From positions 62,001-126,000 of the forward strand of contig NZ_BLAE01000004.1 in NCBI RefSeq assembly GCF_009687865.1: DNA of 64,000 nt, read 5' to 3'. Positions 35,685 through 62,011 of this stretch are shown here, piece after piece. The position numbers were made by a program, and so were the translations under genes. The DNA comes from Acrocarpospora macrocephala. Lineage in GTDB: Bacteria > Actinomycetota > Actinomycetes > Streptosporangiales > Streptosporangiaceae. The first letter of the stretch is position 1, and each line of letters opens with the position of its first letter. The notes under the pieces were generated by a model. It worked only from the letters and a program-made list of their open reading frames with translations, was not told the origin of the DNA and did not search any database.

Positions 35685-35730
35685 CAACCCGGCGGGCCGG
35701 CAGCTTCATTGGGGTGCGGAGGGAACGTCG

Positions 35731-37623: not shown

Positions 37624-37680
37624 CAACCTTTCGACACGTCCGTCACCCACGGCCCCGAGACTGATGAGCCCTTCGCGTTG

Positions 37681-37727
37681 GAGTAAATTCATCAGTTGTT
37701 GATTTACTCTTGGCTCGGTCGTAATCT
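37681..37727 (+). promoter_or_regulatory. Promoter and inverted-repeat operator of the rph-like gene
   Basis: TTGATT (37699-37704), 17 bases, then TAATCT (37722-37727) form a promoter. GAGTAAAT (37681-37688) and ATTTACTC (37702-37709) are exact inverted repeats 13 bases apart that overlap the -35 box, so a repressor site is likely. AAGGAGG (37734-37740) is a strong ribosome site for the ATG at 37748. The known rifamycin-associated element (GC-rich 19-bp repeat) is not seen. Confidence 0.6.
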
Positions 37728-37747
37728 GGCCGCAAGGAGGCGGTCAC

Positions 37748-45453: not shown

Positions 45454-45552
45454 GCACGTGCTCCTTTTAATTAGAAAGTCGTGATCTGGACAGCCGCGGC
45501 GGTGAGGAGCCTGGTCGGTGGCTATGCGGCTGTCTATGGGACGGGTTTCTGG

Positions 45553-46761
45553 TTAATACTCGTTACCGACGACGAAGCTGACCGTGGTGGTCGTGCTGCC
45601 GCCGATGTTCAGGGTGCCGAACCGGCGCGCCCCTTCGATCTGGTACGCCCCGGCCCGCCCGGTCACCTGGCGGGCGGCGTCCAGCACCATCCGGACCCCG
45701 GTGGCGCCGACCGGATGGCCGCCGCCGATCAGCCCGCCGCTGGGATTGACGGGGATGCGCCCGCCGATCTCCAGGTCGCCGTTCTCGACGGCCTTCCAGC
45801 TCTCGCCAGGCCCGGTGATGCCGAAGTGGTCGATGGCCGCGTATTCGGACATGGTGAAGCAGTCGTGGGTCTCGATGCCGTCGAGCGCGTCCACGCCGGG
45901 GATTCCGGCGCGGGCGAAGGCGTCGAGAACGGTGTTGCGCACGTGCGGCAGCACGTACGGCTCCGCCGCGCTGCGGGCCAGCTTCTGGGCGAGCGGCAGC
46001 CCGACCGTGCGGTGGCCCCAACCTTGGATCCTGGCTTTGGGCGCCTTCGAGCGGGCCAGGAATCGTTCCCCGACGAGCACGACCCCGGCCCCGCCGTCGG
46101 TGATCTGGCTGCAGTCGGTGCGGCGCACCCGGCCTTCGACGATCGGGTTGGCGGTGTCGTCGGCGGTGAAGCTGGCGTCGGTGAAGGTCCAGCCGCGGGT
46201 CTGCGCGTTCGGGTTGGCGCGGGCGTTGCGGAAGTTGAGCTCGGCGATGGCGTGCAGGTGGGCGTCGTCGAGGCCGTAGCGGCGGTCGTACTCGTCGGCG
46301 AGGGCGCTGAACATGTAGGGCCACATGAAGCGGGCGTCCTCGCCCTCGTGGCCGATCCAGGCGGCGGCGCCGAGATGCCCGGCCGCGTCGTCGCCGGAGA
46401 CGGTGCGTTCCAGTTCGAGGCCGAGGACGAGGGCGGAGTCGTACCTGCCGGATTCGATGTCGGCCATGGCGGCGAGCAGGGCGACGCCGCCGGAGGCGCA
46501 GGCGGCTTCGTGCCGGGCGGCGGGCACTTCCCAGAATTCCGGCATGACGGTGGCGGGCATGCCGCCGAGCTGGCCCTGCCGGGTGAACAGCTGGCCGAAG
46601 GCGTTGCCGACGTGGATGACGCCGATGTCGGCGGCGTCCACCCCGGCGTCTTCGAGGGTTCCGGCCGTGACCGCCTCGGTCAGGTCGCCGAATTCCCGAT
46701 CGTCCCGGCACCAGTTCCGGGCGAAGTCCGTTTGGTGGCCGCCCAGGATCCATACTGACAT
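45553..46761 (-). CDS. SCP2/SCP-x type thiolase
   Basis: 402 residues. Active-site Cys88 in EAACASGG, ETHDCFTMSEY and GGHPVGATG supply the other catalytic groups of the SCP-x-like thiolases. It runs opposite to a second thiolase 49 bases away. Usual role: last step of side-chain or fatty acyl beta-oxidation. A DUF35 OB-fold partner is not seen. Confidence 0.92.
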   Translation of the reverse strand: MSVWILGGHQTDFARNWCRDDREFGDLTEAVTAGTLEDAGVDAADIGVIHVGNAFGQLFTRQGQLGGMPATVMPEFWEVPAARHEAACASGGVALLAAMADIESGRYDSALVLGLELERTVSGDDAAGHLGAAAWIGHEGEDARFMWPYMFSALADEYDRRYGLDDAHLHAIAELNFRNARANPNAQTRGWTFTDASFTADDTANPIVEGRVRRTDCSQITDGGAGVVLVGERFLARSKAPKARIQGWGHRTVGLPLAQKLARSAAEPYVLPHVRNTVLDAFARAGIPGVDALDGIETHDCFTMSEYAAIDHFGITGPGESWKAVENGDLEIGGRIPVNPSGGLIGGGHPVGATGVRMVLDAARQVTGRAGAYQIEGARRFGTLNIGGSTTTTVSFVVGNEY

Positions 46762-46810
46762 GGTTCCTTACTACAATAATGAGAGTGACGCGTCAAAGAG
46801 AGGCGTAACC

Positions 46811-48013
46811 GTGTCCGACGTCTTCCTGCTGGATTACGTGCGCACTCCCCGGGCGAAGGGCTCAGCCCGCGGTTCCCTGCACCATCAGAGCCCGGTGGAC
46901 CTGGTCGCGGCGCTGCAGCGGGCTCTGGTGGATCGCACCGGCCTGGATCCCGGCGCGGTCGAGGACGTGATCGTCGGTTCCGCCTCCCAGGTGGACGAGC
47001 AGGGCGCCAACCTGGCGCGGACCGCCACCCTGCTGGCCGGGTGGGGCGACGGCGTGCCCGGCGGGACGATCAACCGGTTCTGCGCCTCGGGCGTGGACGC
47101 GGTGGCCCAGACCTCGGCCAGAATTCGCGCCGGCGACATCGGCCTGGCGGTGGCCGGCGGGGTGGAGAGCGTCTCCCGGGTGCCGATGTACAGCGACCGG
47201 GGACCGCTGTGGACACACCCGGAGACGGTCCGGCGGATCGGGTCGATCCACATGGGCGTGGCCGCCGACCTGAACGCCACCATCGACGGCTGGACCCGCG
47301 ACCAGCTGGACGCGTACGCGGTGGAGACCCACACCAAGGCCGCCGCCGCCTGGGATCGCGGCGACTACGCCGGGTCCGTGCTCCCGATGACCCGCGCCGA
47401 CGGCTCGGTCTTCGACCGGGACGAGCTGATCCGCCCGGGCACCACGGCGGAGAGCCTCAAGGCCCTCGCCCCGGCCTTCGGCGACCTCGGCCAGGACCCC
47501 ATCGCGCTCGCCGCCCACCCGGAGGTCGGCGAGATCAACCACCTGCACACGGTCGGCAGCTCCCCCGCGCTGGCCGACGGCGCGGCCCTGCTCCTGCTCG
47601 GCACCCGGGCGCAGGCCGACCGGCACGGCCTGCGCCCCCGCGCCCGCGTCCTCGCCAGCGCGACCGCCGCCGTGGACCCCGTGATCATGCTTACGGCCGG
47701 CCAGGAGGCGATCGAGAAGGTCCTCGCCAAAGCCGGGCTCACCCCCGCCGACATCGACGTCTACGAGTTCGCCGAAGCCTTCTCCGCGCTCTGCCTGCGC
47801 CTGCGCCGCGACCTCGGCCCCGGCCCCGACCGGCTCAACCCCGGCGGCGGCACGATCGCCATGGGCCACGCTTTCGGCGCCACCGGCGCGATCATGGTCG
47901 GTGGCTGCGCCGACGCCCTCGAACGCCTCGGCGGCCGGTACGGCGTGGCCGCCGTCAGCGGCGCCGCCGGACTCGGCGTGGCCGTCCTGATCGAGCGGGT
48001 GACCGAGTGGTGA
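46811..48013 (+). CDS. Acetyl-CoA acyltransferase-like thiolase lacking the second Cys
   Basis: 400 residues from a GTG at 46811. Nucleophile Cys91 (NRFCASGVDAV), EFAEAFSA and GHAFGATG (His353) are present. At the C-terminus the CxGGG loop that carries the acid/base Cys in FadA/PhaA enzymes reads VSGAAGLG, with Ser383 in place of Cys. The change may slow Claisen chemistry or mark a different acyl transfer. Divergent from the SCP2 thiolase. Confidence 0.9.
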   Translation: MSDVFLLDYVRTPRAKGSARGSLHHQSPVDLVAALQRALVDRTGLDPGAVEDVIVGSASQVDEQGANLARTATLLAGWGDGVPGGTINRFCASGVDAVAQTSARIRAGDIGLAVAGGVESVSRVPMYSDRGPLWTHPETVRRIGSIHMGVAADLNATIDGWTRDQLDAYAVETHTKAAAAWDRGDYAGSVLPMTRADGSVFDRDELIRPGTTAESLKALAPAFGDLGQDPIALAAHPEVGEINHLHTVGSSPALADGAALLLLGTRAQADRHGLRPRARVLASATAAVDPVIMLTAGQEAIEKVLAKAGLTPADIDVYEFAEAFSALCLRLRRDLGPGPDRLNPGGGTIAMGHAFGATGAIMVGGCADALERLGGRYGVAAVSGAAGLGVAVLIERVTEW

Positions 48014-49106: not shown

Positions 49107-50294
49107 TTAACTTGCCGCATGAAGGCGCAGAGGTGCGCTCGTGTCCAGGAACTCCTCCAGCACCAGAGTGGCCGCGCCGAGCGCCACCGCGTCGGGACCG
49201 AGCTCGCCCAGGATGATCGAGGTCGCGTTGCACGGCTGGGCGAGCGAGTTCGCGCGGGCGGCGGCCCGGATACCCGGCAGCAGGTCACGGCCGATCATCA
49301 GCCCGGCCCAGCCGCCGATCAGGATGCGCTCGGGATTGAGCAGGTTGATGAGGTTGGCCAGGCCCATGCCCAGGTAGGCCACGGTCTCCTCGATCACCTG
49401 GGAATCGCTCTCCAGCACCCGGCCGAGCGCGGCCTGCCAGTCCGTGGTGCGGGTCGCGACCCCGGCCCGGTCGAGAATGCCCTCCGCCCCGATGTACGCC
49501 TCCAGGCAGCCGCGGCCGCCGCACCGGCACTGCCGCCCGTCCAGCGCGATCTTCGTGTGCCCCCACTCCCCCGCGCTGTTGCTGGACCCCCGCATCACCA
49601 CCCCGTCGGCCACCACGGTCGCCCCCACCCCGGACCCGATCAGCACGATCACCGCGTGCGCGGCCCCCCGCCCGGCCCCGAACCAGAGTTCGGCCTGCCC
49701 CATCGTCTTGGCGCCGTTGTCGATGAACACCGGCAGCGAGGTGCCCGCCCGCATCAGCGCCCCCAGCGGCACGCCGTCCCAGCCGAAGGTTTTGGCGTGG
49801 ATGAGCGTGTCCTGGCCGCGTTCCACGATGCCGGGCACGCCGATGCCGACGCCCAGCACCCGGTCAGCGGGCACCCCGCCGTCGGCCAGCACCACGTCGA
49901 TGCCCGCCAGGATCCGGCGGGTGACCAGCTCGATGTCATGGTGGGAGGGCCGCAGGCTGTAGTCGACCCGGGCCTTCTCGGTCATCTCCAGGTCGAACAG
50001 CTCGACCCGGACGTGCGTCTCGGCGACATCCACGCCGATCACGTAGCCGTACGCCGGATTGACCCGCAGCAGCACCCGCGGTCGCCCACCGTCGGAGTCC
50101 ACCTGACCGGCCTCGACGATGATGTTGTCGGCCAGCAGGTCGCCGGTCATGGTGCTGATCGTGGCGGCGCTGAGCCCGGTGAGCCCGGTGAGCTCGTGGC
50201 GGCTGGCCGGGCCGTCGAAGTAGAGCGTGCGCAGCAACATGCCGCGGTTGCCCCGCCGCACGTCCCGGACCGTCCTGCGCTCCGGCCTCGCCAT
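49107..50294 (-). CDS. ROK family transcriptional regulator
   Basis: 395 residues: N-terminal winged HTH (GPASRHELTGLTGLSAATIS) and a sugar-kinase-like ROK domain. ROK signatures: GVGIGVPGIV, NGAKTMGQAE, GEWGHTKI and the zinc-binding CRCGGRGCLEAY. It is divergent from the ABC importer genes, with an inverted repeat in the shared region, and probably represses them until a sugar binds. Confidence 0.93.
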   Translation of the reverse strand: MARPERRTVRDVRRGNRGMLLRTLYFDGPASRHELTGLTGLSAATISTMTGDLLADNIIVEAGQVDSDGGRPRVLLRVNPAYGYVIGVDVAETHVRVELFDLEMTEKARVDYSLRPSHHDIELVTRRILAGIDVVLADGGVPADRVLGVGIGVPGIVERGQDTLIHAKTFGWDGVPLGALMRAGTSLPVFIDNGAKTMGQAELWFGAGRGAAHAVIVLIGSGVGATVVADGVVMRGSSNSAGEWGHTKIALDGRQCRCGGRGCLEAYIGAEGILDRAGVATRTTDWQAALGRVLESDSQVIEETVAYLGMGLANLINLLNPERILIGGWAGLMIGRDLLPGIRAAARANSLAQPCNATSIILGELGPDAVALGAATLVLEEFLDTSAPLRLHAAS

Positions 50295-50312
50295 GCGTCT
50301 GCCTCCCCGTGC

Positions 50313-50333
50313 TTAGTTCAATACGTGAACCTA
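50313..50333. promoter_or_regulatory. Candidate ROK operator
   Basis: TTAGTTCA (50313-50320), five bases, then TGAACCTA (50326-50333): an inverted repeat with mismatches at the outer end, 19 bases from the ROK start codon. The core CTTAGTT recurs at 49098 and, inverted as AACTAAG, at 56410, near other ends of the cluster. Confidence 0.5.
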
Positions 50334-50485
50334 TAGTCGCGACGCTCTCACCTCGGCCGCAACCGGGACGAAGCCAATCGACAAGGGTAGCCCGCGTTGC
50401 GTTACCAAAGCGTTTCCCGCGGAGGGCTGATCTTTTTTTGCATCTTACATTATCGTCTGTGCAACCCCCGATGAAGGAGATGGAA

Positions 50486-51703
50486 ATGATCAGGAGAGTC
50501 ACCGGCATCGCCGCGGTCGCGGCGCTGCTCGCCGGACTCACCGCTTGCGGCGGCTCCGAGGAGGCCGCAGGGTCCACGACCCTGACGTACTGGATGTTCC
50601 AGGACCGGACTCCGCAGGCGGGTGAAGTCGTCGAGAAGATCCGTACCGACTTCGAGAAGGCCAACCCGGGCGTCACCGTCAAGATCGTCAAGATTCCCAA
50701 GGACGACTACAACACCAAGCTGGGCAGCGCGGTGGCCGCCGGGACCGTCCCCGACGTCGGCATCCTCGACCAGCCCCTGGTCGCCCGGTACGCGCTGGAC
50801 AAGACCATCGTCGAGATGCCCGCCGGCACGGTCAACGAGGCGGACTTCTTCGAGGGGGCCCTGAACACCAACCGCGTCGACGGCAAGCTGTACGGCCTGC
50901 CCGTCGACCACACCGCCGTCGCGCTCTTCTACAACAAGAAGCTGGTCCCCACCCCGCCCAAGACCTGGGACGAGCTCAAGCAGATGAGCGACGCCATCCA
51001 CAAGGCCGACCCGAAGGTGGCCGGCATCGTGGTGCCCAAGGGCGACGGCTACGGCGCCTGGATGTGGCCGGGCGTGGTGCACGGCGCCGGCGGCGAGATG
51101 GTCGACGAGGCGAACAAGAAGATCCTCTTCGACCAGCAGCCGGCCGTGGACGCGCTGCAGCTCTGGGTGGACCTGCTGCCCTCCTCGCCGCGCGAGATCA
51201 CCGACTCCGACCTGGCCTTCGCCAACGGCCTGGCCGGGATGATGATCTCCGGGCCGTGGGACGTCGCCACCATCAAGGACCAGTTCCCCGAGCTCGACTT
51301 CAACGTCGCGCCGCTGCCGTACAAGACGACGCCGGCCGGGAACATCGGCGGCGAGAACGCCGTGGTGTTCGCCAAGGGCACGAACGCGGCCCTGGCCTGG
51401 AAGTGGCTCGCGTTCCTGACCAACTCCGACAACAACACCCAGCTCGCGCAGGCGCTCGGCGGCTTCCCGATCAACAAGGCCGCGGCCGAGCGGGACGCCG
51501 CCACCTTCGGCGAGCAGCAGCAGGGCTTCCTGGAGCAGCTCAAGGTCGCCCACGCCCGCCCGGCGCTGCCGGACTGGATCAAGATCAACGATGAGTTCAT
51601 CGCCCCCGCCATCGAGGCCGCGCTGAGCGGCAAGGTCACCTCCCAGCAGGCGCTCACCGAAGCCGCGAACAAGACGCGGGCCCTGCTCGGCTGGAACAGC
51701 TAA
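50486..51703 (+). CDS. Sugar ABC transporter substrate-binding lipoprotein
   Basis: 405 residues from the ATG at 50486; AAGGAG lies 8 bases upstream, so two earlier in-frame ATGs are less likely. Signal AVAALLAGLTACGGSEE gives a lipidated Cys. The fold is MalE-like (YWMFQDRTPQAGEVV, LYGLPVDHTAVALFYNKKL, MMISGPWDVATIKD). It is first in an importer operon divergent from the ROK gene. Confidence 0.93.
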   Translation: MIRRVTGIAAVAALLAGLTACGGSEEAAGSTTLTYWMFQDRTPQAGEVVEKIRTDFEKANPGVTVKIVKIPKDDYNTKLGSAVAAGTVPDVGILDQPLVARYALDKTIVEMPAGTVNEADFFEGALNTNRVDGKLYGLPVDHTAVALFYNKKLVPTPPKTWDELKQMSDAIHKADPKVAGIVVPKGDGYGAWMWPGVVHGAGGEMVDEANKKILFDQQPAVDALQLWVDLLPSSPREITDSDLAFANGLAGMMISGPWDVATIKDQFPELDFNVAPLPYKTTPAGNIGGENAVVFAKGTNAALAWKWLAFLTNSDNNTQLAQALGGFPINKAAAERDAATFGEQQQGFLEQLKVAHARPALPDWIKINDEFIAPAIEAALSGKVTSQQALTEAANKTRALLGWNS

Positions 51704-51721
51704 CGCGGAAGCGAGGCAATC

Positions 51722-52687
51722 GTGGCATCTCCGGTGCTGGCCGAAAGGCCCGCCGTGGAGCCCCGGCCCGGGCGGCGCCGCCGCCCGGGAATCGGGCGCT
51801 CGGACCAGCTGATCGGGTGGCTGCTGATCACGCCCGCGCTGGTCTACTTCGTCGTCTTCCTGCTCTACCCGGCCGTGGCCGCGCTCTACTACAGCTTCAC
51901 CGACTGGAACCTGCGCACCGCCCCCAACTGGGTCGGTTTCGCGAACTACACCGAACTACTCTTCAACGACGTCGAGTTCCCGCATTTCTGGAAATCGGTG
52001 CAGGTCACCCTGCAGTACACGCTGATCGCGGTGCCGCTCACGCTGGTCTCCGCGCTGGCGCAGGCGCTGCTGATCAACGCCATCCGGCGGGGCTCCAACA
52101 CGTTCCGGCTCCTGCTCTTCCTGCCCGTGGTCACCGCGGAGGCGGCGGTCGGCGCGATCTGGCGCTGGCTCTACGACCCGCAGTACGGTTTGATCAACGC
52201 GGCGCTCGGCCTGGTCGGCATTCCCAAGCAGAACTGGCTGAACACCCCCGAACTGGTCATCCCCGCGCTGGCGTTCATCGCGGCCTGGCAGTGCGGCATC
52301 TCGATGATCATCTATTTGGCCGGTTTGAAGGGCATCCCCGAGTCGATCCGGGAGGCGGCCATCATCGACGGCGCCGGCCCGGTGCAGCGGTTCTGGAAAG
52401 TGGTCGTGCCGATGCTCAGGCCGACCACGTTCTACCTGGTGGTGACCGGCACCATCGCGGCACTTCAGGTGTTCGGGCTGGTCTATGTGATCTTCTCTGG
52501 CGGCGGCGGGCGGAGCGTGACCGGCGGTCCGGAACAGTCCGGGCTGGCTTACGTGCTCCACATCTACCTGTACGCGTTCCGGTATGACGCGATGGGCGCG
52601 GCCTGCGCGATGTCCTTCATGCTGCTGGTGTTGATCATGATCGTGACGGCGCTCCAGTTCAAGTTCCTGAAGCAGGAGGCGTCGTGA
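51722..52687 (+). CDS. Sugar ABC transporter permease (MalF type)
   Basis: 321 residues, GTG start with GAGG upstream. A basic N-terminus is followed by six hydrophobic segments. The EAA loop reads EAAIIDGAGPVQRFWKVVVP (near 215-234). It overlaps the next permease by GTGA. The loop pairs with a shared ATPase encoded elsewhere. Confidence 0.93.
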   Translation: MASPVLAERPAVEPRPGRRRRPGIGRSDQLIGWLLITPALVYFVVFLLYPAVAALYYSFTDWNLRTAPNWVGFANYTELLFNDVEFPHFWKSVQVTLQYTLIAVPLTLVSALAQALLINAIRRGSNTFRLLLFLPVVTAEAAVGAIWRWLYDPQYGLINAALGLVGIPKQNWLNTPELVIPALAFIAAWQCGISMIIYLAGLKGIPESIREAAIIDGAGPVQRFWKVVVPMLRPTTFYLVVTGTIAALQVFGLVYVIFSGGGGRSVTGGPEQSGLAYVLHIYLYAFRYDAMGAACAMSFMLLVLIMIVTALQFKFLKQEAS

Positions 52688-53529
52688 TCGCCCGTCAGGT
52701 GCGTAAGGCGCCCATCTACGTGGCGCTGGTGTTGCTGTCGCTGGTGTCGGTGGTGCCGTTCATCTGGATGCTGGCCACCTCGTTTAAGCACAGCTCGGAC
52801 ATCTACACCAAAGTGCCCAGCCTGCTGCCCCTGGACAAGCAGACCGGCGAGTGGGCGGCGACGCTGGAGAACTACGACCATGTGCTCGGGATCGGCGGGC
52901 TCGGGCAGGCGTTCCTCAACAGCATCTGGGTGTGCGCGATCCTGGTGCCGGCCAAACTGCTGATCGACGCGCTGGCGGCGTACGCGTTCGCGCGCATTCC
53001 GTTTCCCGGGCGGGACAAGCTGTTCGTGGTGTTCCTGGCCGGGATGATGGTGCCGACGATCACGCTGCTGGTGCCGCGGGTGCACATCACGCAGGTGCTC
53101 GGGATGTACGACACGAGGTGGGGGCTGATCCTGCCCAATATCGCATCGGTGCTGGATATTTTTCTGTTGCGGCAGTTCTTCATGTCGTTGCCGGGAGAAC
53201 TGGAGGAGGCCGCCCGGATCGACGGGGCCGGGCGGATGCAGATCTTCTGGCGGATCGTGGTCCCGCTCTCCAAGCCGGTGCTGGCGGTGGTGACGATCAC
53301 CAGCTTCATCTTCCACTGGAATGATCTGGTGTGGCCGTTGGTGGTGACCAACGATCCCGAGCTGAACACCCTGCCGCTGGCGTTGCAGCAGCTGGCCAGC
53401 ACCGAGTCGGGGCGGGCCTACTACATCATGGCGGGGGCCGCACTGTCGGTGATCCCGGTGATCATCGTGCTGCTGATCTTCCAACGGCGGATCATGCAGG
53501 GCATCGCCTTCACCGGCCTGAAGACCTGA
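52684..53529 (+). CDS. Sugar ABC transporter permease (MalG type)
   Basis: 281 residues, GTG start overlapping the previous stop. Six membrane segments; the EAA loop is EAARIDGAGRMQIFWRIVVP (about 178-197). The end LIFQRRIMQGIAFTGLKT is typical. A strong terminator follows 30 bases downstream, closing the operon. Confidence 0.93.
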   Translation: MIARQVRKAPIYVALVLLSLVSVVPFIWMLATSFKHSSDIYTKVPSLLPLDKQTGEWAATLENYDHVLGIGGLGQAFLNSIWVCAILVPAKLLIDALAAYAFARIPFPGRDKLFVVFLAGMMVPTITLLVPRVHITQVLGMYDTRWGLILPNIASVLDIFLLRQFFMSLPGELEEAARIDGAGRMQIFWRIVVPLSKPVLAVVTITSFIFHWNDLVWPLVVTNDPELNTLPLALQQLASTESGRAYYIMAGAALSVIPVIIVLLIFQRRIMQGIAFTGLKT

Positions 53530-53558
53530 CCCGGGTGCCGACCGGAAGCCGGAAACAC

Positions 53559-53588
53559 GAGCCGGGGTGTGGAGGGACACCCCGGCTC
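53559..53588 (+). terminator. Terminator of the ROK-cluster importer operon
   Basis: GAGCCGGGGTGT (53559-53570) pairs perfectly with ACACCCCGGCTC (53577-53588) over a six-base loop, just after the MalG stop. Confidence 0.85.
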
Positions 53589-53740
53589 AAACATTTCATC
53601 CACACGAGCCCGGGGCGTGGAAGGACGAGCTGGCTCAGACACTCAACCGGGGCGTGGAAGAACGAGCTGGCTCGGACACTCAACCGGGGTGTAGAGACAA
53701 CCTGGTTCAGGCATTTCCCCCATCTGCCTGCATTTCCCCC
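53559..53740. repeat. Tandem array of degenerate hairpin units
   Basis: The CCGGGG(T/C)GT core recurs at 53562, 53610, 53647 and 53684 (spacing 48, 37, 37). Each of the first three units ends in a GGCTC able to pair with an upstream GAGC. Later units lose pairing, and the tail carries two copies of GCATTTCCCCCATCTG. It appears to be a terminator amplified in tandem and then decaying. It fills most of the 310-base gap between the permease and the dehydrogenase gene. Confidence 0.7.
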
Positions 53741-53749
53741 ATCTGAGCG

Positions 53750-53813
53750 GCCCCTCTTGGCGCCGGGACGGCGAGAAGCGACGCGGACGCAAACGGCGCC
53801 GGATAACGGCGAG
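53750..53813. repeat. 64-base dispersed intergenic repeat, copy B
   Basis: Same length and ends as copy A at 35621-35684, with about three quarters of positions identical, highest in the first 12 and last 22 bases. No ORF is contained. It lies between the hairpin array and the 3' end of the dehydrogenase gene. Confidence 0.6.
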
Positions 53814-53839
53814 GACCGGCACCTGTCCCGTCAGATGTC

Positions 53840-54871
53840 TCAGGCGGTGATCGCGAGGACGGTCGGATCGACGGGGTGTTTCAAGGGCTGTCCGGCCAAA
53901 GCGCGGGACACCTCGTCGGCGGCTGATTCGCCCAGTCTGTGGAGTTCGTTACCGAGCGCCCCGGCCACGTGCGGGGTCAGGACGACGTTGGGCAAATCCC
54001 ATAATGGCGAGTCCAATGGCGGGATTTCAGGGTCGGTCACGTCGAGTACGGCCGAAAGGCGGCCGGTGCGGAGTTCGGCGAGGAGGGCGGGTTCTTCCAC
54101 GAGGGAGCCTCGGGCGGTGTTGATGAGGGTCGCGCCGTCGGGCATCGAGGCCAGCAGGCGGGCGGTGACCAGGCCCCGGGTCTCCTCGGTGGCCGGAGCG
54201 TGGACGGAGACGACGTCACAGGTGGCGAACAGGTCGTCCAGGGTGACCAGGGTGGCGCCGAGATCTTTGGCGGTGGCGGCATCGACGTACGGGTCGGAGA
54301 GCAGGACCGTGAAGTCGAAAGGTCTCAGCAGGGTGAGGACGCGGCGGCCGATCTTGGAGGCGCCGAGCAGGCCCACCGTTCGGTGGTAGTTGCCGATGGT
54401 GAGGTTCCTGCGGGGAAGGTTGAGGTCGGCGCGGGTGGCGCGGTATTCGCGGGCGAGCGTGGGGACGGCTTTGCCGGCCAGGAGGATCATGGCCAGCGTG
54501 TACTCGGCGACGGGGACGGCGTTGGCGTCGGCGGCGGAGCTGACCGGAATGCCGCGGTCGAAGACGTCGAGGCTGAGGTGGCCTTTGACCGTTCCGGCGG
54601 CGTGAACGACGGCTCGCAATCTGGGCGCGTGCGCCAAAGCGGCGGAATCCAGTCGCGGGCTTCCCCAGCCGGTCAGGAGGACGTCCGCCGCGCGGAGGCG
54701 GTCACGCGACCGCGCGGACTGGAAGTCGATCAGCGGATCGGTCAGATCGATCTCGGCGACCGCTTGGAGGCGCTCCGCGATCGGGGGCGGGAACAAGCGC
54801 GGCGGGAGATCGGGGAACATCGCGAGTTCGACGCGCGTTTGGACCCGCGCGCCCGTCGTCAACGAGTCCAC
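53840..54871 (-). CDS. D-2-hydroxyacid dehydrogenase (NAD-dependent)
   Basis: About 343 residues. The NAD-binding domain shows VGLLGASKIGRRVL. Catalytic Arg is in NTARGSLVEE, Glu in DVTDPEIPP and His in LTPHVAGALGNE. The start is uncertain: a GTG at 54871 overlaps the aldehyde dehydrogenase end by 13 bases, a TTG at 54862 by 4. Reduces a 2-keto acid or oxidises a 2-hydroxy acid, and works in the same transcript as the aldehyde dehydrogenase, perhaps on a sugar-acid intermediate. Confidence 0.88.
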   Translation of the reverse strand: MDSLTTGARVQTRVELAMFPDLPPRLFPPPIAERLQAVAEIDLTDPLIDFQSARSRDRLRAADVLLTGWGSPRLDSAALAHAPRLRAVVHAAGTVKGHLSLDVFDRGIPVSSAADANAVPVAEYTLAMILLAGKAVPTLAREYRATRADLNLPRRNLTIGNYHRTVGLLGASKIGRRVLTLLRPFDFTVLLSDPYVDAATAKDLGATLVTLDDLFATCDVVSVHAPATEETRGLVTARLLASMPDGATLINTARGSLVEEPALLAELRTGRLSAVLDVTDPEIPPLDSPLWDLPNVVLTPHVAGALGNELHRLGESAADEVSRALAGQPLKHPVDPTVLAITA

Positions 54872-56265
54872 GAGGGAACGTCGAGGGGCGTGCGCTGGAC
54901 GCCGATCCACTGGCGGCGGGTGAAGCCGGGCATCTGGTTCTCCGCGCCGTGCCGGGCGTGGGCGTCGTTGACGTGGACCTCGCCCGCCTGGAGGCGCTCC
55001 GCGACGGTCATGCCGCGGATGAGGTCGGCGCTGAAGACCGAGTTCATCAACATCGGGTAGCCGTTGACGAGCGCGACGGCCTCCTCCTCGGAGTCGACCA
55101 CGGTGATCGGGATGACCGGGCCGAAGATCTCCTCGGTGAAGGCGGGCATGTCGGGCGTGACACCGGTGAGCACGGTCGGCCGGTAGAACAGGCCCTCGTA
55201 GGTGCCGCCGGTGGTCACCTTGGCGCCCTTGGCGATGGAGGGCTGCACGATCGTCTGGTGGACGCGGTCGCGCTGGGTCTCGCTGATCAGCGGGCCGAGA
55301 TCGACGTCCTCGCGGACGGGGTCGCCGACGCGGAGCGCCGCCACCCGTTGGGTCACCGTCTCGGCGTACCGGTCGGCGACGGAGCGCAGGACGATGTGGC
55401 GGCTGGCGCTGATGCAGGTCTGGCCCTGGAATTCGAGCGAGGCGATGAGCGCGCACGAGGCGGCCAGGTCGAGGTCGGCGTCGTCGAGGACGACGAAGGC
55501 GTTGGAGCCGCCGAGTTCGAGGCGGATCTGGCGCAGGTCGGTGGCGGCCGAGGCGGCGATGGCCAGGCCGACCTCGCGGGAGCCGGTGAAGTCGAGCAGG
55601 TCCAGGCCGCGGTGCTCGGCGAGCGCGTGGCCCGCGTCGGGTCCGTCGCCGGTGACCAGGTTGAACACGCCCGGCGGGAACCCGGCGTGGTGGGCGGCTT
55701 CGGCGAGGATCTGGCCGCCGAGGATGGGGGTGAGTTCGGCGGGTTTGAGGACGATGGTGTTGCCGAAGGCGAGGCCGGGGGCGACGGCGCGCATCGCGAG
55801 GTTGAGGGGATAGTTCCAGGGGGTGATGATGCCGATCACGCCCAGGGGGACCGCGCGGGAGAGGGAGAGCTTTCCCGCTTTGTACGGCTGGAGAATGTCG
55901 CCGGCGGACTGGGTGGCCTGAACCGAGGAGATGGCGAGCTGGCGCAGGCCCGCCGAGACCTCGTCCTCGGCTTTGGCGCGGACGCCGCCGGTTTCGCGCA
56001 TGCTGAGGTCGATCAGCTCGTCGTACCGGCCGCGGAGGTGCGCCGCGAAGCGGTCCAGATGCGCGGCGCGTTCCGGGGCGCTGAGGGCGGCCCAGCCCGG
56101 TTGGGCGGCGCGGGCGGCGGCGACGGCGCGATCGACGTCGGCGGGGGTGGCCTGGGCGTATTCGCCGATCTGCTCGCCGGTCGCCTTCTCGCGTACGGGG
56201 GCGGTGGTGGCCGGGGTGAAGGCGCCGTCGATGTAGAGCTTGCCGGAGGCGAGGGAGGCGGTCAT
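54859..56265 (-). CDS. NAD(P)-dependent aldehyde dehydrogenase
   Basis: 468 residues. Catalytic Glu250 (RLELGGSN) and Cys284 (GQTCIS), with ITPWNYPLNLA for cofactor binding. N-terminal LYIDGAF is typical of the soluble tetrameric class. Together with the downstream 2-hydroxyacid dehydrogenase and the divergent DUF2264 gene it suggests oxidation of a sugar-derived aldehyde. No signal peptide. Confidence 0.93.
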   Translation of the reverse strand: MTASLASGKLYIDGAFTPATTAPVREKATGEQIGEYAQATPADVDRAVAAARAAQPGWAALSAPERAAHLDRFAAHLRGRYDELIDLSMRETGGVRAKAEDEVSAGLRQLAISSVQATQSAGDILQPYKAGKLSLSRAVPLGVIGIITPWNYPLNLAMRAVAPGLAFGNTIVLKPAELTPILGGQILAEAAHHAGFPPGVFNLVTGDGPDAGHALAEHRGLDLLDFTGSREVGLAIAASAATDLRQIRLELGGSNAFVVLDDADLDLAASCALIASLEFQGQTCISASRHIVLRSVADRYAETVTQRVAALRVGDPVREDVDLGPLISETQRDRVHQTIVQPSIAKGAKVTTGGTYEGLFYRPTVLTGVTPDMPAFTEEIFGPVIPITVVDSEEEAVALVNGYPMLMNSVFSADLIRGMTVAERLQAGEVHVNDAHARHGAENQMPGFTRRQWIGVQRTPLDVPSWTR

Positions 56266-56283
56266 GGCGCAGATTCTAAACTT

Positions 56284-56424
56284 ACTCGTATGCCTAAAAT
56301 AAGGTCTTGACCACGGTTTTCTGGCCGACTACCGCGTCGATTTTTCCGGATATATCACGATCGAGGACCACGGGGCGTGTCGGGTGTGGCGACTTCTGAT
56401 GATACTTAAAACTAAGTCTTGACA
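56284..56424 (+). promoter_or_regulatory. Divergent control region of the aldehyde dehydrogenase and DUF2264 genes
   Basis: Two related A/T-rich blocks occur: CCTAAAATAAGGTCTTGACC (56293-56312) and CTTAAAACTAAGTCTTGACA (56405-56424). Each joins a small palindrome to a TTGAC -35-like box. The second contains AACTAAG, the inverse of the CTTAGTT core near the ROK gene, so ROK control of this transcript is plausible. Clear -10 boxes are not seen. Confidence 0.45.
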
Positions 56425-56491
56425 GCTCTGGTTCGGAGCGGCCACCCTTCCCGGTGAAGCGCATTCACCCACCGACCCCGGGGGACCCGCA

Positions 56492-58324
56492 GTGGAACGA
56501 TCGGCCTGGTCAGTAGCTCTGGAAGATCGCGGGGAGATGCGGGGGCTGGTGCGGGAGCTGGTGGCGCCGCTGCTTCCCCGGTTCAGTTCGGGGCGTGCCC
56601 GGCTGCGGCTCGGGGGCAACGCCGCGCACTATCCGGACGCGGCGGCCGAGCTGGAGTCGTTCGCCCGGCCGCTCTGGGGGCTGGCGCCGCTGGCGGCTGG
56701 CGGTGGGGCTTTCGAGCACTGGGATCTGTGGCGGGAAGGGCTCGCCAACGGCACCGATCCGGGGCATCCCGAGTATTGGGGGGCGGTCACCGACATCGAT
56801 CAGCGTTTGGTGGAGACCGCCGCCATCGGCCTCGCTCTGGCGCTCGCTCCCGAAACGATCTGGGATCCGCTCACGGGACGCCAGCGCGACGCCGTCGCCA
56901 CCTGGCTTCAGAACGCGATGACCGTCAAGGCTGTCGAGAACAACTGGCAGTTCTTTCCTGTGCTCGTCGGGCTTGGGCTGAAGCGGATCGGCGTCGAGGC
57001 GGCTCCGGTGGCGGAGCGGCTTGATCTGCTGGAGTCGTATGGGGTTGGAGCTGGTTGGTACAGCGATGGGCGTAATCCGCAGCGGGATTACTACATCCCG
57101 TTTGCGATGCACTACTACGCCCTGATCTACGCCGCTCTGGGGGACGATCCTGCCCGAGCCTGCCGTCTGAAGGAGCGCGCGGCCATGTTCGCGCATGACT
57201 TCCAGCACTGGTTCACCGCCGATGGCGCTGCCGTGCCGTACGGGCGGAGCATGACCTACCGCTTCGCTCAGGGGGCGTTCTGGGGCGCTCTCGCCTTCGC
57301 CGACGTGGAAGCTCTCCCGTGGGAGGTGGTCAAGGGCCACCTGCTTCGCCATGTGCGTTGGTGGCTTAGTCATCCGATCCAGGACGGGTCCGGACTTCTC
57401 ACGATTGGGTACGCGTATGCGCAGCCGCATCTCGCTGAGCAGTACAACGCGCCCGGGTCTCCGTACTGGGCGTTGAAGGCCTTTCTGCCCCTGGCCCTGC
57501 CCGAGACCCACGCGTTCTGGCAGGCCGGGGAGACCGCCGCGCCGCCCCTCCCGGTGACCAGCACCCAGCCGGATCCCGGCGTCACCCTGATGCGCTGCGA
57601 GGAAGGCCGCCAAGTGGTCATGCTGACCTCCAGCCAGCATCACAACTGGGTACGCCACGGCGCGGCCAAATACACGAAGTTCGCTTACTCGACCGCGTTC
57701 GGCTTCAGCGTTCCCGCGGGGACGTGGGGGTTGGAACAGGGCGCTTTCGACAGCACTCTCGCGCTGAGCGACGACGGCGACCATTGGCGGCCGTGCGAGA
57801 TCCCCCAGGATCCCTCGGCGCATGCCGGTCTTCACTACTTCCGGTGGAACCCCTGGCCGGATGTGGATATCGAAACGTGGCTCATCGCGTACGCGCCTTG
57901 GCATGTGCGGATCCACCGCGTCCGCTCGGACCGTACCCTGCAAACCGCCGAAGGAGCTTTCGCCCTGAACCGCGACGTGCGCTGCCACCGGACCGAGACA
58001 GGGCCAGGGCACGCCCGCCTGCTGTCCCCCGCCGGGCTCTGCCAGATCGAGGACCTCGCGCCGTCGCCCGCGCGCCGGGGAGAGCTCGTCGCGGCGCTCC
58101 CCGGCACCAACGTGATGGCCCCCCGGACGACGATCCCCACCCTGCTCGCCGAACTCGCGCCCGGCGAACACTGGCTGGCCTGTGCGGTGCTGGCCCTGTC
58201 CGACCCACCGGTGGAATGGGCGAATCCCCCCAGCCTGACCCACACCCTTGCCGAGCAGGACCCGGTGGCCGCACGCCTGATCCGGTCGCCGCCTTGGCTC
58301 AGCGACCGCGCGCCCGGCGGATGA
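56492..58324 (+). CDS. DUF2264 protein, GH154-like (beta-glucuronidase family)
   Basis: 610 residues, GTG start with GGGGGA upstream. The long N-terminal helical toroid shows WGLAPLAAGGGAFEHWDLW, NNWQFFPVLVGLGLKRIG, YSDGRNPQRDYYIPFAMHYY and YGRSMTYRFAQGAFWGAL, all hallmarks of DUF2264. The C-terminal half is a beta-sandwich. DUF2264 became glycoside hydrolase family 154, whose first known member is an exo-beta-glucuronidase. No signal peptide, so it should act on imported oligosaccharides. Substrate here is inferred. Confidence 0.88.
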   Translation: MERSAWSVALEDRGEMRGLVRELVAPLLPRFSSGRARLRLGGNAAHYPDAAAELESFARPLWGLAPLAAGGGAFEHWDLWREGLANGTDPGHPEYWGAVTDIDQRLVETAAIGLALALAPETIWDPLTGRQRDAVATWLQNAMTVKAVENNWQFFPVLVGLGLKRIGVEAAPVAERLDLLESYGVGAGWYSDGRNPQRDYYIPFAMHYYALIYAALGDDPARACRLKERAAMFAHDFQHWFTADGAAVPYGRSMTYRFAQGAFWGALAFADVEALPWEVVKGHLLRHVRWWLSHPIQDGSGLLTIGYAYAQPHLAEQYNAPGSPYWALKAFLPLALPETHAFWQAGETAAPPLPVTSTQPDPGVTLMRCEEGRQVVMLTSSQHHNWVRHGAAKYTKFAYSTAFGFSVPAGTWGLEQGAFDSTLALSDDGDHWRPCEIPQDPSAHAGLHYFRWNPWPDVDIETWLIAYAPWHVRIHRVRSDRTLQTAEGAFALNRDVRCHRTETGPGHARLLSPAGLCQIEDLAPSPARRGELVAALPGTNVMAPRTTIPTLLAELAPGEHWLACAVLALSDPPVEWANPPSLTHTLAEQDPVAARLIRSPPWLSDRAPGG

Positions 58325-58369: not shown

Positions 58370-59047
58370 TCAATTCGCGTCCGAGTCGAGGAACGCACCC
58401 GCGACAGATGCGAAATCGTCAGGGGAATCCGTGTGAATGTTGTGGCCTGCGTCAATGATGACGAACTTCGCGTCAGGGATGATTTCGGCTACTTCCGCGA
58501 GGACCGCAGGGGGGATTAGGCCGCCGGATTCGCCGCCGCTGAGGACGAGCGTCGTGGCGGTGATGGCCGGCAGGCGATCCCACCACGCGGGGTCGGGGGC
58601 GCGAAGGCCGCGCCGGATCGGGTCGACCAGGCGCCAGTCGAAATCCACCGGTTCGTCGGGCTCGGGGAAGGAGTCCACGTGCACGGCCGGAGGGCGGCGG
58701 GGCGGGGCGGGTGGCTCTTCGAGGACCATGCGCCGGATCAGGGCCGGGTGCTCCTGCGCGATCCGGATGGCGATCGCGCCGCCCATCGAATGGCCGATCA
58801 GATCGATCTGATCGAATCCACGTTCTTTGATGAAGGCCACCACGTCCGCCACCATCAGATCGACGCTGTATTCGGCCGCGCGAGGGCTGCGGTCATGGCC
58901 TCGCGCGGCCAGGGCGAAGGTGTGCCGGTCAAGCCCGGAGACGAAGAAGTCCCAGGTTTCCGGACGGCTGGTCAGCCCGTGAAGCAGGAACAGCGGAATC
59001 CCTCCGGGCACGCCCCGCTCCACGTACGCAAGTTCGACGATGCTCAT
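58370..59047 (-). CDS. Alpha/beta hydrolase
   Basis: 225 residues with the nucleophile elbow GHSMGGAIA (about 96-104), oxyanion region FLLHGLTSRPETW and the terminal DAGHNIHTDSP carrying the catalytic His. Likely an esterase or lactonase; substrate not evident. It converges with the DUF2264 gene 45 bases away. Confidence 0.92.
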   Translation of the reverse strand: MSIVELAYVERGVPGGIPLFLLHGLTSRPETWDFFVSGLDRHTFALAARGHDRSPRAAEYSVDLMVADVVAFIKERGFDQIDLIGHSMGGAIAIRIAQEHPALIRRMVLEEPPAPPRRPPAVHVDSFPEPDEPVDFDWRLVDPIRRGLRAPDPAWWDRLPAITATTLVLSGGESGGLIPPAVLAEVAEIIPDAKFVIIDAGHNIHTDSPDDFASVAGAFLDSDAN

Positions 59048-59073: not shown

Positions 59074-59388
59074 TCAGATATGCGGGGCCAGATCGGCCAG
59101 AATCATCCGCTTGGGCTTGGCGCCCTTGATCTGGTGGATGATCTCACCGTCGCGGTAGAGGTTGAGGGTCGGATAGCCGAGGACGTTGTAGCGCATCGCC
59201 ACCTCGGGATGGTCGTCGGCGTTGAGTTTGGCGATGATGAGGCGGTCGCCGTACTCGGCGTCGATCTCGTCCAGGATCGGGGCGAGCATCTTGCAGGGCG
59301 GGCACCAATCGGTCCAGAAGTCCACCAGGACGGGACGGTCGCTCTTCAGCACGTCCTCGTCGAAACTCTCCGTCGTCACTGTGATCAT
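59074..59388 (-). CDS. Thioredoxin with CPPC active site
   Basis: 104 residues, start at the ATG at 59388 with CAGGAG upstream. The redox site is WCPPC (28-32) instead of the usual WCGPC, then YNVLGYPTLNLYRDGE with the cis-Pro. The ATG overlaps the stop of the MerR gene, so regulator and thioredoxin are made together. Confidence 0.92.
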   Translation of the reverse strand: MITVTTESFDEDVLKSDRPVLVDFWTDWCPPCKMLAPILDEIDAEYGDRLIIAKLNADDHPEVAMRYNVLGYPTLNLYRDGEIIHQIKGAKPKRMILADLAPHI

Positions 59389-59759
59389 TGGGTTCTCCTG
59401 ATCGCGCATCCAGGGCAGGCCTGCTTCAGCTGAGTGGCGACCTCGGTCCTCCGGGCGACCAGCGCCTGGATCTCCGCGTCGATCTCGGCCAGCTTGCGCT
59501 GGTAGACGGCGACGGATTCCGGGCAGGCGTTCCCTGACGCGTGCCCGGCCCGCAGGCAGGCGACGAACGGCCGGGCGTCCTCAAGCGTGAACCCCACGGC
59601 CATCAGCGAACGAATCTGAGCGACCAGCCGGATATCGGCCTCGTCATACTCCCGATAGCCGTTCGCGGCCCGCCGAGCCAGGATCAGCCCCTGCTCCTCG
59701 TAATGCCGCAACGCCCGAGCACTCACCCCCGCCCGCCGCGCCAACTCCCCAATCCGCAT
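59385..59759 (-). CDS. MerR family regulator with C-terminal cysteines
   Basis: 124 residues: HTH (MRIGELARRAGVSARALRHY), a dimerisation helix, and Cys at 68, 79, 115 and 118, the last pair in ACPGCAIRR. The cysteines could bind a metal or form a redox switch, which fits coupling to a thioredoxin gene. Start at 59759 with GGAGGG upstream, rather than the GTG/ATG at 59795. Confidence 0.9.
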   Translation of the reverse strand: MRIGELARRAGVSARALRHYEEQGLILARRAANGYREYDEADIRLVAQIRSLMAVGFTLEDARPFVACLRAGHASGNACPESVAVYQRKLAEIDAEIQALVARRTEVATQLKQACPGCAIRRTQ

Positions 59760-59810
59760 CGACCCTCCACCAGCACCCACCACCGGCGGCAACACCCACC
59801 GGCCCTCCGA

Positions 59811-59841
59811 ACGTAAACGCTCACACCAACGTCAAGGTCAA
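59811..59841 (-). promoter_or_regulatory. MerR-type promoter with 19-base spacer
   Basis: On the minus strand TTGACC (59841-59836) is followed by 19 bases and TTACGT (59816-59811). The long spacer is the hallmark of promoters that MerR proteins activate by DNA twisting. It reads into merR-trx and implies autoregulation. The rest of the 361-base gap (59760-60120) shows no convincing gene. Confidence 0.45.
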
Positions 59842-60077
59842 GCCCCCACTTCCCACCACACACCGGCGGGAGATCGGCCGGGAGCGCCGAAACCGGCACG
59901 GACGCCACCTCCCGCACGTACCGGCGAGCGATGTCCGAGGGCCTTCCGCGACCATCCGTTCGTGAGGTCACGTGGGTAGCCGCACCGATATGCCGGTCTT
60001 GGCGCCACAAGGCCCATATAGGCACACGGAAATGCCTCGCGCGACGTCCACCTAATGACCGTGTCCGATGCCGCAGC

Positions 60078-60097
60078 GCCGGGTCCGTACGCCCGGC
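60078..60097 (-). terminator. Possible terminator of the aldehyde dehydrogenase gene
   Basis: GCCGGG (60078-60083) and CCCGGC (60092-60097) form a small hairpin 24 bases after the leftward stop; a second weaker stem (CCGCTT/AAGCGG) lies between it and the stop. No T-run. Confidence 0.4.
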
Positions 60098-60120
60098 ACC
60101 GCTTGTCGGACGTGAAGCGG

Positions 60121-61671
60121 CTAGGCGATGGCGCGGTCGGGGATGGTCGTGTAGTCGGGGAAGTTGCCGGGGAGGCGTTCGTCCTCGGGGCCCTGGGTGA
60201 CCGCGCGGACCAGGAGTTCGCCGCCGACGAACGCCCCGCGCCAGGAGCCGCCGAGGCCGCCGAAGAGCTCTTCGCGGTCGCCGCGGGAGCGTGGCTTGTT
60301 GAGGCCGACCTTGAAGGCGCGGACTTCGGTGGCGAGACGGCGAGCGGTGCGGGCGTCGTCGCAGGAGATGGTCGCGACCAGGGCGCCGTTGCTGGCGTTC
60401 ATCGCGGCCAGCAGTTCGGCCTCGGTGTCGACGAGCACGATCGTGTCCACGGGGCCGAAGGGTTCGGCGTGGAAGAGCGGCGAGGATCCGGGTGGGGTGA
60501 GGATCGCCACCGGTGCAAGGTATGCGGATATGTCCTGACCAGGAAGGAACCGGCCATCGTCGAGCGAGCCGCGGAACAACGGCACGCCGCCCTTGGCGAT
60601 GGCGTCGTCGATCTGATCGGTCAGATCCTTCACCTTGGCGTTGTTGATCAGCGGCCCGAAGTCGAGCTCGGGCAGCGGATCGTCCGGCGACTCCACCGCG
60701 AGCGGATGCCCGAACCGCACCCCCTGCACCGCGGGCAGATACGCCGCCACGAACTCATGGAACAACGACCGCTGCACCACGAACCGCGGATACGCGGTGC
60801 ACCGCTGCTTCGCGTAGTCGAACGTGGCGCGAATCTGCCGCGACAGGGTCTGCCAATCGCTGAAATCCCAGACCCCCCAGCAGTTGAGGCCCTCCTGCTC
60901 CAGCACGTGCCGCCGCCCGAGATCGGCCAGCGAGGTGGCGACCTGCCCACCCGCGTCCCGGCCTCCCACGAAGGAGACGCAGCCCAGCTCCTGCCCCCGC
61001 ACCAGCGCCGGCGAGAGTTCGGCCCCTCCCCCGCTGACCAGCGTCAACGGCACCCCCTCCCGCACGGCCAGCGCACAGGCCAGGGTGAGACAGGACAGCC
61101 CGCCGTCGGTCGGAGTCTTCGCGATGGCCGCGTTGCCCGCCAGCGCCTGCACGAGCATGGCGTGCATCAGCACGCTCATCGGATAGTTCCAGCTGGCGAT
61201 GTTGCTGACCGGCCCGGGCAACGGCACGCGCCCGGCGAGCATGCGCTCGATCTCCTCGACATACCACCGCACGCCCTCGATACAGCGATCCACGTCGGCG
61301 AGCGCGAGCCGCCACGGCTTGCCGATCTCCCACACCAGCAGCAGCGCCAGCAGCTCCCGATGCGCGGTCATCGAATCCAGCGCCGCGGTGACCCGCGCCT
61401 GCCGCTCGGCGAGCGGCATGTGCCGCCACTGCCGATGGTCGTCGAACGCGGCCCGCACGGCCCGCACCGCCGCCGACCGATCCAGCCGGGGCGGCCCCGC
61501 GATCGTCGTCCCGTCCACCGGCGTGACCCCCGGCACCGGCCTCCCGTCACGCTGCCAGATCCCGCCCCAGTGGTTGAGCACCCGGTCATCGTGAAACGCC
61601 TCCGGCGCCTCCGCGCAACACCGGCTGTACGCGTCCTGCCAGGACATACCCGGTTTGAGAACGAGCGGCAT
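60121..61671 (-). CDS. Atypical aldehyde dehydrogenase family protein
   Basis: 516 residues from the ATG at 61671 (GGAAG upstream). Catalytic Cys291 lies in QRCTAYPR. The region of the general base reads RHVLEQEGLN (Glu258, Glu260) in place of LELGG. The cofactor motif is NIASWNYPMS. The first 50 residues (FHDDRVLNHWGGIW) are not found in common classes. It is downstream of gcl and may oxidise or supply a small aldehyde such as glycolaldehyde or glyoxylate (inference). Confidence 0.87.
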   Translation of the reverse strand: MPLVLKPGMSWQDAYSRCCAEAPEAFHDDRVLNHWGGIWQRDGRPVPGVTPVDGTTIAGPPRLDRSAAVRAVRAAFDDHRQWRHMPLAERQARVTAALDSMTAHRELLALLLVWEIGKPWRLALADVDRCIEGVRWYVEEIERMLAGRVPLPGPVSNIASWNYPMSVLMHAMLVQALAGNAAIAKTPTDGGLSCLTLACALAVREGVPLTLVSGGGAELSPALVRGQELGCVSFVGGRDAGGQVATSLADLGRRHVLEQEGLNCWGVWDFSDWQTLSRQIRATFDYAKQRCTAYPRFVVQRSLFHEFVAAYLPAVQGVRFGHPLAVESPDDPLPELDFGPLINNAKVKDLTDQIDDAIAKGGVPLFRGSLDDGRFLPGQDISAYLAPVAILTPPGSSPLFHAEPFGPVDTIVLVDTEAELLAAMNASNGALVATISCDDARTARRLATEVRAFKVGLNKPRSRGDREELFGGLGGSWRGAFVGGELLVRAVTQGPEDERLPGNFPDYTTIPDRAIA

Positions 61672-61714
61672 CAGGTCTTCCTTTCCTACGGATATGCGGC
61701 GAACCGTCACCATG

Positions 61715-61746
61715 GACGGAAGGTCGATCGGACGGAAGGTCGATCG
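61715..61746. repeat. 16-base tandem repeat before the aldehyde dehydrogenase
   Basis: GACGGAAGGTCGATCG occurs twice without a gap (61715-61730, 61731-61746), about 45 bases before the leftward start at 61671. A duplicated regulator site is plausible. Confidence 0.5.
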
Positions 61747-61795
61747 GAGAGGCTGGTCAAAGTCGCCGGAGCGGTTTCAACCCTGAGTAGACGAT

Positions 61796-61833
61796 CTCTC
61801 CCGCTTCGGAGGGGTTCGGGGTAAGCGGGAGAG
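61796..61833 (-). terminator. Stem-loop between gcl and the aldehyde dehydrogenase
   Basis: CTCTCCCGCTT (61796-61806) pairs with AAGCGGGAGAG (61823-61833), 11 bp with a 16-base loop, in the 340-base gap after gcl. No T-run follows. Confidence 0.45.
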
Positions 61834-61838
61834 GCGGG

Positions 61839-61985
61839 CTAGAGCTGGTCCCCCGCCCCCCATCTCCCCGGGTGGGGCGACTTGTCGAACTTCTTGAAGC
61901 GCGGGGCCGAGCTCGTCGGTGCCCGGGATCGACGCGAGCAGCTGGGCCAGGCCCACCGATTCGCCGACCTCCAGGCCGGAGCTCG
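61839..61985 (-). pseudogene. Possible C-terminal gene remnant downstream of gcl
   Basis: On the minus strand one frame reads GESVGLAQLLASIPGTDELGP and another continues FKKFDKSPHPGRWGAGDQL to a TAG at 61839. Each half looks protein-like, and a one-base shift near 61900 would join them. No start codon or family is recognised. It may be a decayed gene tail or chance. Confidence 0.25.
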
Positions 61986-62011
61986 CCTCCGTCGGCCGGG
62001 GGCGTTGACGC

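Follow-up and report, generated by a model that had tools for sequence, protein, structure and literature searches.

What does a DUF2264/GH154 protein do when a 2-hydroxyacid dehydrogenase, and not the usual hydrolase, is encoded beside it? The question is raised by a gene cluster at positions 49107-58324 of a 64,000-nucleotide stretch of Acrocarpospora macrocephala contig NZ_BLAE01000004.1 (the whole stretch is called the window here), from a 12.1-Mb genome assembly that is 98.6% complete. The cluster groups a ROK-family regulator, a sugar importer, a D-2-hydroxyacid dehydrogenase (2-HADH), an aldehyde dehydrogenase (ALDH) and a DUF2264/GH154 protein. An earlier interpretation made without database searches (the sequence-only reading) had listed these genes, and each is found at its coordinates with Pfam matches far above the cut-offs. 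It had also taken the cluster for a beta-glucuronidase system. Overall, that interpretation is partly supported and needs a dehydratase correction: the most likely activity of the cluster enzyme is to dehydrate a uronic acid, not to cut it off. The unusual element of the cluster is the 2-HADH, rather than an oxidative route, and its recurrence in place of the usual partner across several bacterial phyla suggests that uronic acids are broken down by a route not yet recognised.

Results

The DUF2264 protein (56492-58324, plus strand) matches PF10022 with 405 bits against a curated cut-off of 25 (E = 2.6e-121) and carries a DUF2264_C domain (PF20938, E = 3.5e-46). Its N-terminus has no signal peptide, consistent with the cytosolic location proposed earlier, and the proposed tie of DUF2264 to GH154 and uronates is correct. 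The only solved structures related to it by sequence are 8oi4, labelled a GH154 beta-galactosidase, and 9o4u/9nwf, the Bacteroides caccae beta-D-glucuronate dehydratase BcGDH (PMC12269599). Work published in 2025 recast GH154 enzymes as beta-D-glucuronate dehydratases, which eliminate water across C4-C5 and hand the delta-4,5 uronide so formed to a GH88/105 hydrolase. In that study, the founding member BT3677 was likewise a dehydratase, the GH154 site was found to have no glycosidase-type catalytic pair, the glycosidase activity of recombinant preparations was gone after further purification, and reclassification of the family was proposed (PMC12269599). All ten BcGDH active-site residues (E74, R78, N176, N177, W178, F181, Y229, R285, Y289 and Y354) are kept in the window protein (E55, R59, N150, N151, W152, F155, Y201, R252, Y256 and Y318), and nine of the ten are invariant across 118 homologues. 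For an AlphaFold2 model of the protein (predicted local distance difference test score, pLDDT, 87.5), the best PDB fold matches were 8oi4 and 9o4u (E 1e-14 to 1e-12). The next matches, along the whole two-domain length, were uronate lyases with a toroid-plus-beta-sandwich fold (PL35, PL8, PL15, PL17 and PL33). Given the GH154 literature, the kept active site and the uronate-lyase-like fold, dehydratase chemistry is much more likely than hydrolysis, and we predict that the window protein is a cytosolic uronate 4,5-dehydratase. The glucuronidase premise of the sequence-only reading was rejected on the published work (PMC12269599) and on the kept dehydratase active site. A DUF2264 gene of the same subfamily (49% identity) lies among GH78, GH28 and GH2 genes on a plasmid of Halopiger xanaduensis (L206), with neither GH88/105 nor 2-HADH annotated near this haloarchaeal gene.

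Among 247 actinomycete genomes, DUF2264 was found in 49, the window-type 2-HADH subfamily in 60 and GH88/105 over the cut-off in 34. The 2-HADH was present in 47 of the 49 genomes with DUF2264 versus 13 of the 198 without; in the remaining two DUF2264 genomes, GH88/105 adjoins DUF2264. Within 15 kb of the 67 DUF2264 loci of these actinomycetes, the 2-HADH was encoded at 30, GH88/105 at five and both at none. A scan of GTDB genomes gave 80 named DUF2264 loci from Actinomycetota, Pseudomonadota, Bacillota and others, and here too no locus had both partners (35 with the 2-HADH, 32 with GH88/105, 13 with neither). We call DUF2264 loci with GH88/105 type A and those with the 2-HADH type B (37 and 50, respectively, of 87 typed loci). 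A hidden Markov model (HMM) check of these loci found the 2-HADH at 50/50 type-B and 0/37 type-A loci, and GH88/105 at 0/50 type-B and 35/37 type-A loci. At most Rhizobiales loci, the 2-HADH gene is directly 3´ of DUF2264. The LacI, DUF2264, 2-HADH and TIM-barrel genes of S. meliloti pSymB overlap end to start, and R. johnstonii 3841 has one locus of each type in a single genome. On the DUF2264 tree, the partner label switches at least eight times. In a large part of the GH154/DUF2264 family, the 2-HADH replaces GH88/105 as the partner, and the two have been swapped several times in evolution. The earlier suspicion that the dehydrogenases belong with DUF2264 was right. The 2-HADH takes the GH88/105 place across phyla; the ALDH is confined to the genus and two relatives.

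Searches of the whole host genome, family by family, found one copy of DUF2264 and no GH88/105 (PF07470). A hidden GH88/105 was rejected on this absence and on the failure of an HMM built from the type-A partners to match any of the 50 type-B loci. As the sequence-only reading had noted, there is no UxaC uronate isomerase (PF02614) in the genome, and the classical glucuronate isomerase pathway is lacking to that extent. No KduI was found in the genome either: the sole match to the KduI family (PF04962) is IolB, over the TIGR04378 cut-off, and was rejected as a KduI candidate (DhuI was not searched for). Elsewhere in the genome are KdgD (387 bits, over the cut-off of 374) and a GudD-like protein (779 against a cut-off of 829); with these glucarate-pathway genes, the end of an oxidative pathway would be available to the host. 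Oxidative handling of the released sugar, as suggested earlier, has to be reformulated, since the genome encodes no GH88/105, the standard hydrolase that would release the sugar. An oxidative uronate/aldarate route is in itself ordinary in bacteria. Also in this genome, a glucarate-dehydratase-like enolase gene is directly followed by a 2-HADH of a different subfamily (contig C84, 22541-24744; L057:542-2745). On contig C42, at about 34600-38500 (L208), a PL8 lyase-like gene lies in pieces across different open frames, with PF02278 matches at 37310-37558 and 38080-38472 and no single open reading frame called, and for that reason may be broken.

The 2-HADH also occurs apart from DUF2264. At 7 of 84 such loci, versus 0.3 expected, a PL8 (hyaluronate-type) lyase gene is no more than 10 kb away, and at other loci alginate-lyase-like genes stand alongside. 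PL8 and alginate-type lyases make delta-4,5 uronates, as is predicted for DUF2264. Genes for PF01261 TIM barrels are near the 2-HADH at 17/49 type-B and 16/52 2-HADH-only loci, compared with 0/37 GH88/105 loci. A three-gene set, Gfo/Idh/MocA oxidoreductase-DUF993-PF01261, is a repeated neighbour of the 2-HADH, seen in Rhizobium, in Scopulibacillus and at two actinomycete loci (L143 13337-16614, L184 3936-7081, L090 11312-14456, and L098); a literature search by the names DUF2264 and DUF993 returned no papers from the library used, which thus describes no function for DUF993. In one actinomycete family (f21), the 2-HADH adjoins a TIM-barrel gene, mostly near several alpha-amylase-family genes and with no DUF2264 or lyase (L070, L072, L075, L076, L082, L084, L086, L088, L089 and L091-L093), which is a third genomic context of the 2-HADH.

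The 2-HADH of the cluster (53840-54871, minus strand; PF02826, E = 3.4e-48) is of the NAD type and belongs to the DUF2264-linked subfamily. Its start is uncertain (GTG at 54871 or ATG at 54820), and the gene overlaps or abuts the ALDH stop. The Arg239/Glu267/His286 triad and the NAD-binding Asp178 are invariant across 17 homologues, and by this sequence criterion the protein is a competent NAD-dependent enzyme. Its AlphaFold2 model (pLDDT 89.4) has a fold matching D-2-HADHs.

The ALDH (54859-56265, minus strand; PF00171, E = 2.3e-134) could be a passenger of the 2-HADH operon, with a different or lost role. It is found only in the genus, in Herbidospora/G036 and in G026, and its C-terminus stops short of the end of the Aldedh model (profile matched over 8-430 of 461). 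This shortness is common to five species, on which ground a sequencing frameshift was rejected as its cause, and the protein possibly represents a distinct ALDH subfamily. Against a passenger role, the ALDH directly abuts the 2-HADH, is 81-99% identical at the same position in the five species, and has intact catalytic motifs (TPWNY at 148, LELGG at 249 and GQTC at 281, with Asn, Glu and Cys). We consider a passenger role unlikely.

The importer is of the CUT1 type and consists of a sugar-type solute-binding lipoprotein with the lipobox LTAC (50471-51703; PF13416, E = 1.6e-40) and two permeases, one of the UgpA/MalF type (51722-52687; PF00528) and one of the UgpE/MalG type (52684-53529; PF00528, E = 4e-19), all on the plus strand. 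There is no ABC ATPase gene within the cluster, and a shared ATPase from elsewhere presumably serves this importer. The ROK regulator (49107-50294, minus strand; PF00480, E = 1.5e-45) is 93-96% identical in three congeners and scores under all NCBIfam kinase/NagC/Mlc cut-offs. Between it and the binding-protein gene is a candidate ROK operator, the palindrome GTTCA-ATACG-TGAAC (GTTCA-N5-TGAAC; 50316-50330), which is conserved when this intergenic region is aligned among four congeners. ROK control of the importer is likely on this evidence. The divergent ALDH/DUF2264 promoter region (56266-56491) carries a conserved imperfect direct repeat instead (TAAAATAAGGTCTTGACC at 56295 and TAAAACTAAGTCTTGACA at 56407), and the best match there to the ROK-side palindrome, 12/21, is no better than background. 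A single ROK operator serving both promoter regions was set aside on this result; the earlier label "ROK-controlled" is partly supported, by the palindrome on the importer side, and ROK control of the enzyme genes is a possibility.

Gene order and strand are kept at 70-99% identity in other Acrocarpospora genomes, including A. pleiomorpha, A. corrugata and A. catenulata, and the order is largely kept in Herbidospora; given this recurrence, the grouping is not a chance one. An alpha/beta hydrolase gene (58370-59047, minus strand; PF00561) adjoins or lies near DUF2264 in the congeners (56-88% identity), although its membership in the pathway is unproven. By reading of the flanking sequence, the upstream side of the cluster (43945-48013) encodes one protein resembling carotenoid oxygenases and two resembling thiolases (45553-46761, minus strand, and 46811-48013, plus strand). 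Read in the same way, the downstream side (59074-63736) would encode a thioredoxin, a regulator of the MerR type, another ALDH unrelated to that of the cluster (60121-61713) and, at 62012-63736, a thiamine-diphosphate enzyme.

Discussion

How could a cell use a uronate dehydratase without the hydrolase that normally follows it? We infer the dehydratase activity of the window protein, the nature of its substrate, and the reactions of the 2-HADH and ALDH with their order, as follows. The ABC system would import a small uronide or uronic acid. The cytosolic DUF2264 protein would then eliminate the 4-OH (or a 4-O-linked group) and H5, with Tyr256 as the acid, Tyr201 as the base, and the participation of Arg252, to give a delta-4,5-unsaturated uronate with no glycoside hydrolysis. 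Because no GH88/105 hydrolase is present, we propose a substrate whose elimination product can open directly, either a free uronic acid or a reducing-end uronic acid with a 4-linked group; with direct opening to 4-deoxy-5-keto-uronate, GH88/105 would not be needed. By established chemistry, this KduI substrate has a 2-keto acid at its C5-C6 end and an aldehyde at C1 (PMC12838403). For these two groups, a D-2-HADH and an ALDH, respectively, are the natural enzymes. The 2-HADH may reduce the 2-keto acid with NADH and, in this genus, the ALDH may oxidise the aldehyde and regenerate NADH, such that the two together would be NADH-balanced. Were the ALDH to act before the 2-HADH, the product would be 5-keto-4-deoxyglucarate, the substrate of KdgD, and the KdgD encoded elsewhere in the genome could drain it. 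We give this pathway a probability of roughly 0.5. More tentatively, delta-4,5-unsaturated uronates or 4-deoxy-5-keto-uronate may possibly be processed by the 2-HADH subfamily, often with PF01261 and here with the ALDH, in place of GH88/105 plus KduI/KduD. This so far unrecognised alternative would operate together with GH154 dehydratases and with PL8 and alginate-type lyases, and would be found in Actinomycetota, in Rhizobiales and in some Bacillota.

Several points weigh against this pathway and its generality. To our knowledge, no biochemistry exists for this subfamily, and we know of no downstream pathway for 4-deoxy-uronate, the product expected from reduction by the 2-HADH. Some genomes with PL8 and the 2-HADH are also without GH88/105 (e.g. 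G076, G138, G155 and G226). An imported delta-disaccharide would still need to be cleaved in these genomes, and the idea of a free substrate therefore fails for some loci. The substrate of BcGDH and BT3677 is glucuronate in glycosidic linkage, not the free acid (PMC12269599). About one quarter of DUF2264 loci have neither partner nearby. At a nearby sister locus, in Sphaerisporangium album (L125), the ROK, importer and DUF2264 genes are kept, and the 2-HADH and ALDH are not found within 9 kb. Finally, much of the exclusivity count mirrors the relatedness of the loci: independent phylogenetic contrasts left only three to five pairs that are informative; every one of them points the expected way, with a median p of 0.125 in the sign test. 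Fisher tests of exclusivity that ignore this relatedness make the evidence look stronger than it is and were set aside.

Apart from a passenger ALDH, other explanations bear on the 2-HADH. It might act at a later stage, on the small products of an aldolase, as a reductase of hydroxypyruvate or glyoxylate, with the TIM barrels as hydroxypyruvate isomerases. The nearest relatives of the 2-HADH are indeed PGDH, GhrB and McyI-type enzymes, some TIM-barrel neighbours weakly match TIGR03234, and the DUF993 of some loci may be an aldolase. All of these matches are far below curated cut-offs, on which basis the TIM barrels were rejected as curated hydroxypyruvate isomerases, and there would be no reason to expect GH88/105 loci to shut out an enzyme of general use further down the pathway. 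We regard such a role as quite unlikely. The 2-HADH could instead replace GH88/105 directly and, together with a PF01261 TIM barrel or with the Gfo/Idh/MocA-DUF993-TIM set, cleave the delta-4,5-unsaturated glycoside through oxidation plus elimination. This would account for the mutual exclusivity with GH88/105 and for the PL8/2-HADH loci without any GH88/105, and the occurrence of PF01261 at loci with the 2-HADH but at none of the GH88/105 loci fits it. Yet 2-HADHs act on 2-hydroxy or 2-keto acids, and the glycosidic ring offers no such group; the Arg/Glu/His triad conserved here is the same as in ordinary D-2-HADHs, and the window cluster has no adjoining TIM-barrel gene, all of which makes redox-assisted cleavage improbable. 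It is equally improbable that the cluster is an ordinary beta-glucuronidase system, in which imported glucuronides would be hydrolysed by DUF2264 and the glucuronate set free would go to the dehydrogenases: the older assignments of GH154 members as exo-beta-1,6-glucuronidase or beta-galactosidase (cited in PMC12269599) and the glucarate genes of the host would fit it, but the purification results, the nature of the founding member, the missing catalytic pair (PMC12269599), the kept dehydratase site and the uronate-lyase fold neighbours all speak against it.

The proposed dehydratase-dehydrogenase pathway resembles several known systems in part. In the chondroitin pathway of B. caccae PUL25 (BcGDH-BcGH88; PMC12269599), the DUF2264/GH154 enzyme has the same ten active-site residues and the same fold, but is paired with GH88, whereas the two-domain enzyme of the window, in a genome devoid of GH88/105, stands beside a 2-HADH and an ALDH. 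BT3677 shares the two-domain architecture, with the second domain near the active site, but the paper that reports this (PMC12269599) describes no 2-HADH as its partner. The Rhizobium pRL12/p42f loci (DUF2264-GH88-heparinase II/III-ABC) encode the same DUF2264 subfamily (47-49% identity) and an ABC importer, with GH88 where the window cluster has the 2-HADH. A comparable logic of dehydratase plus unsaturated uronyl hydrolase operates in ulvan degradation, where the oligosaccharide dehydratase P29_PDnc acts with GH105 (cited in PMC12269599); unlike the window cluster, that system uses an unrelated dehydratase and depends on GH105. KduI/KduD and DhuI/DhuD are isomerase-reductase pairs that act on 4-deoxy-5-keto-uronate beside its producers (PMC12838403), and the TIM barrel and 2-HADH of type-B loci would be an analogous pair. 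The families differ: KduI/DhuI belong to the KduI/IolB and RpiB families and KduD/DhuD are short-chain dehydrogenases (PMC12838403), while the type-B proteins are PF01261 and D-2-HADH.

The finding is broader than the window, since it concerns an alternative 2-HADH partner for GH154 dehydratases. A missing step of uronic-acid catabolism becomes directly testable in tractable organisms, such as S. meliloti, R. johnstonii and Streptomyces. If true, the proposal would lead to corrected annotations for many genes now called "hydroxyacid dehydrogenase" or "GH154 glucuronidase", and it would account for uronate use in the many actinomycetes and rhizobia that do without the textbook enzymes.

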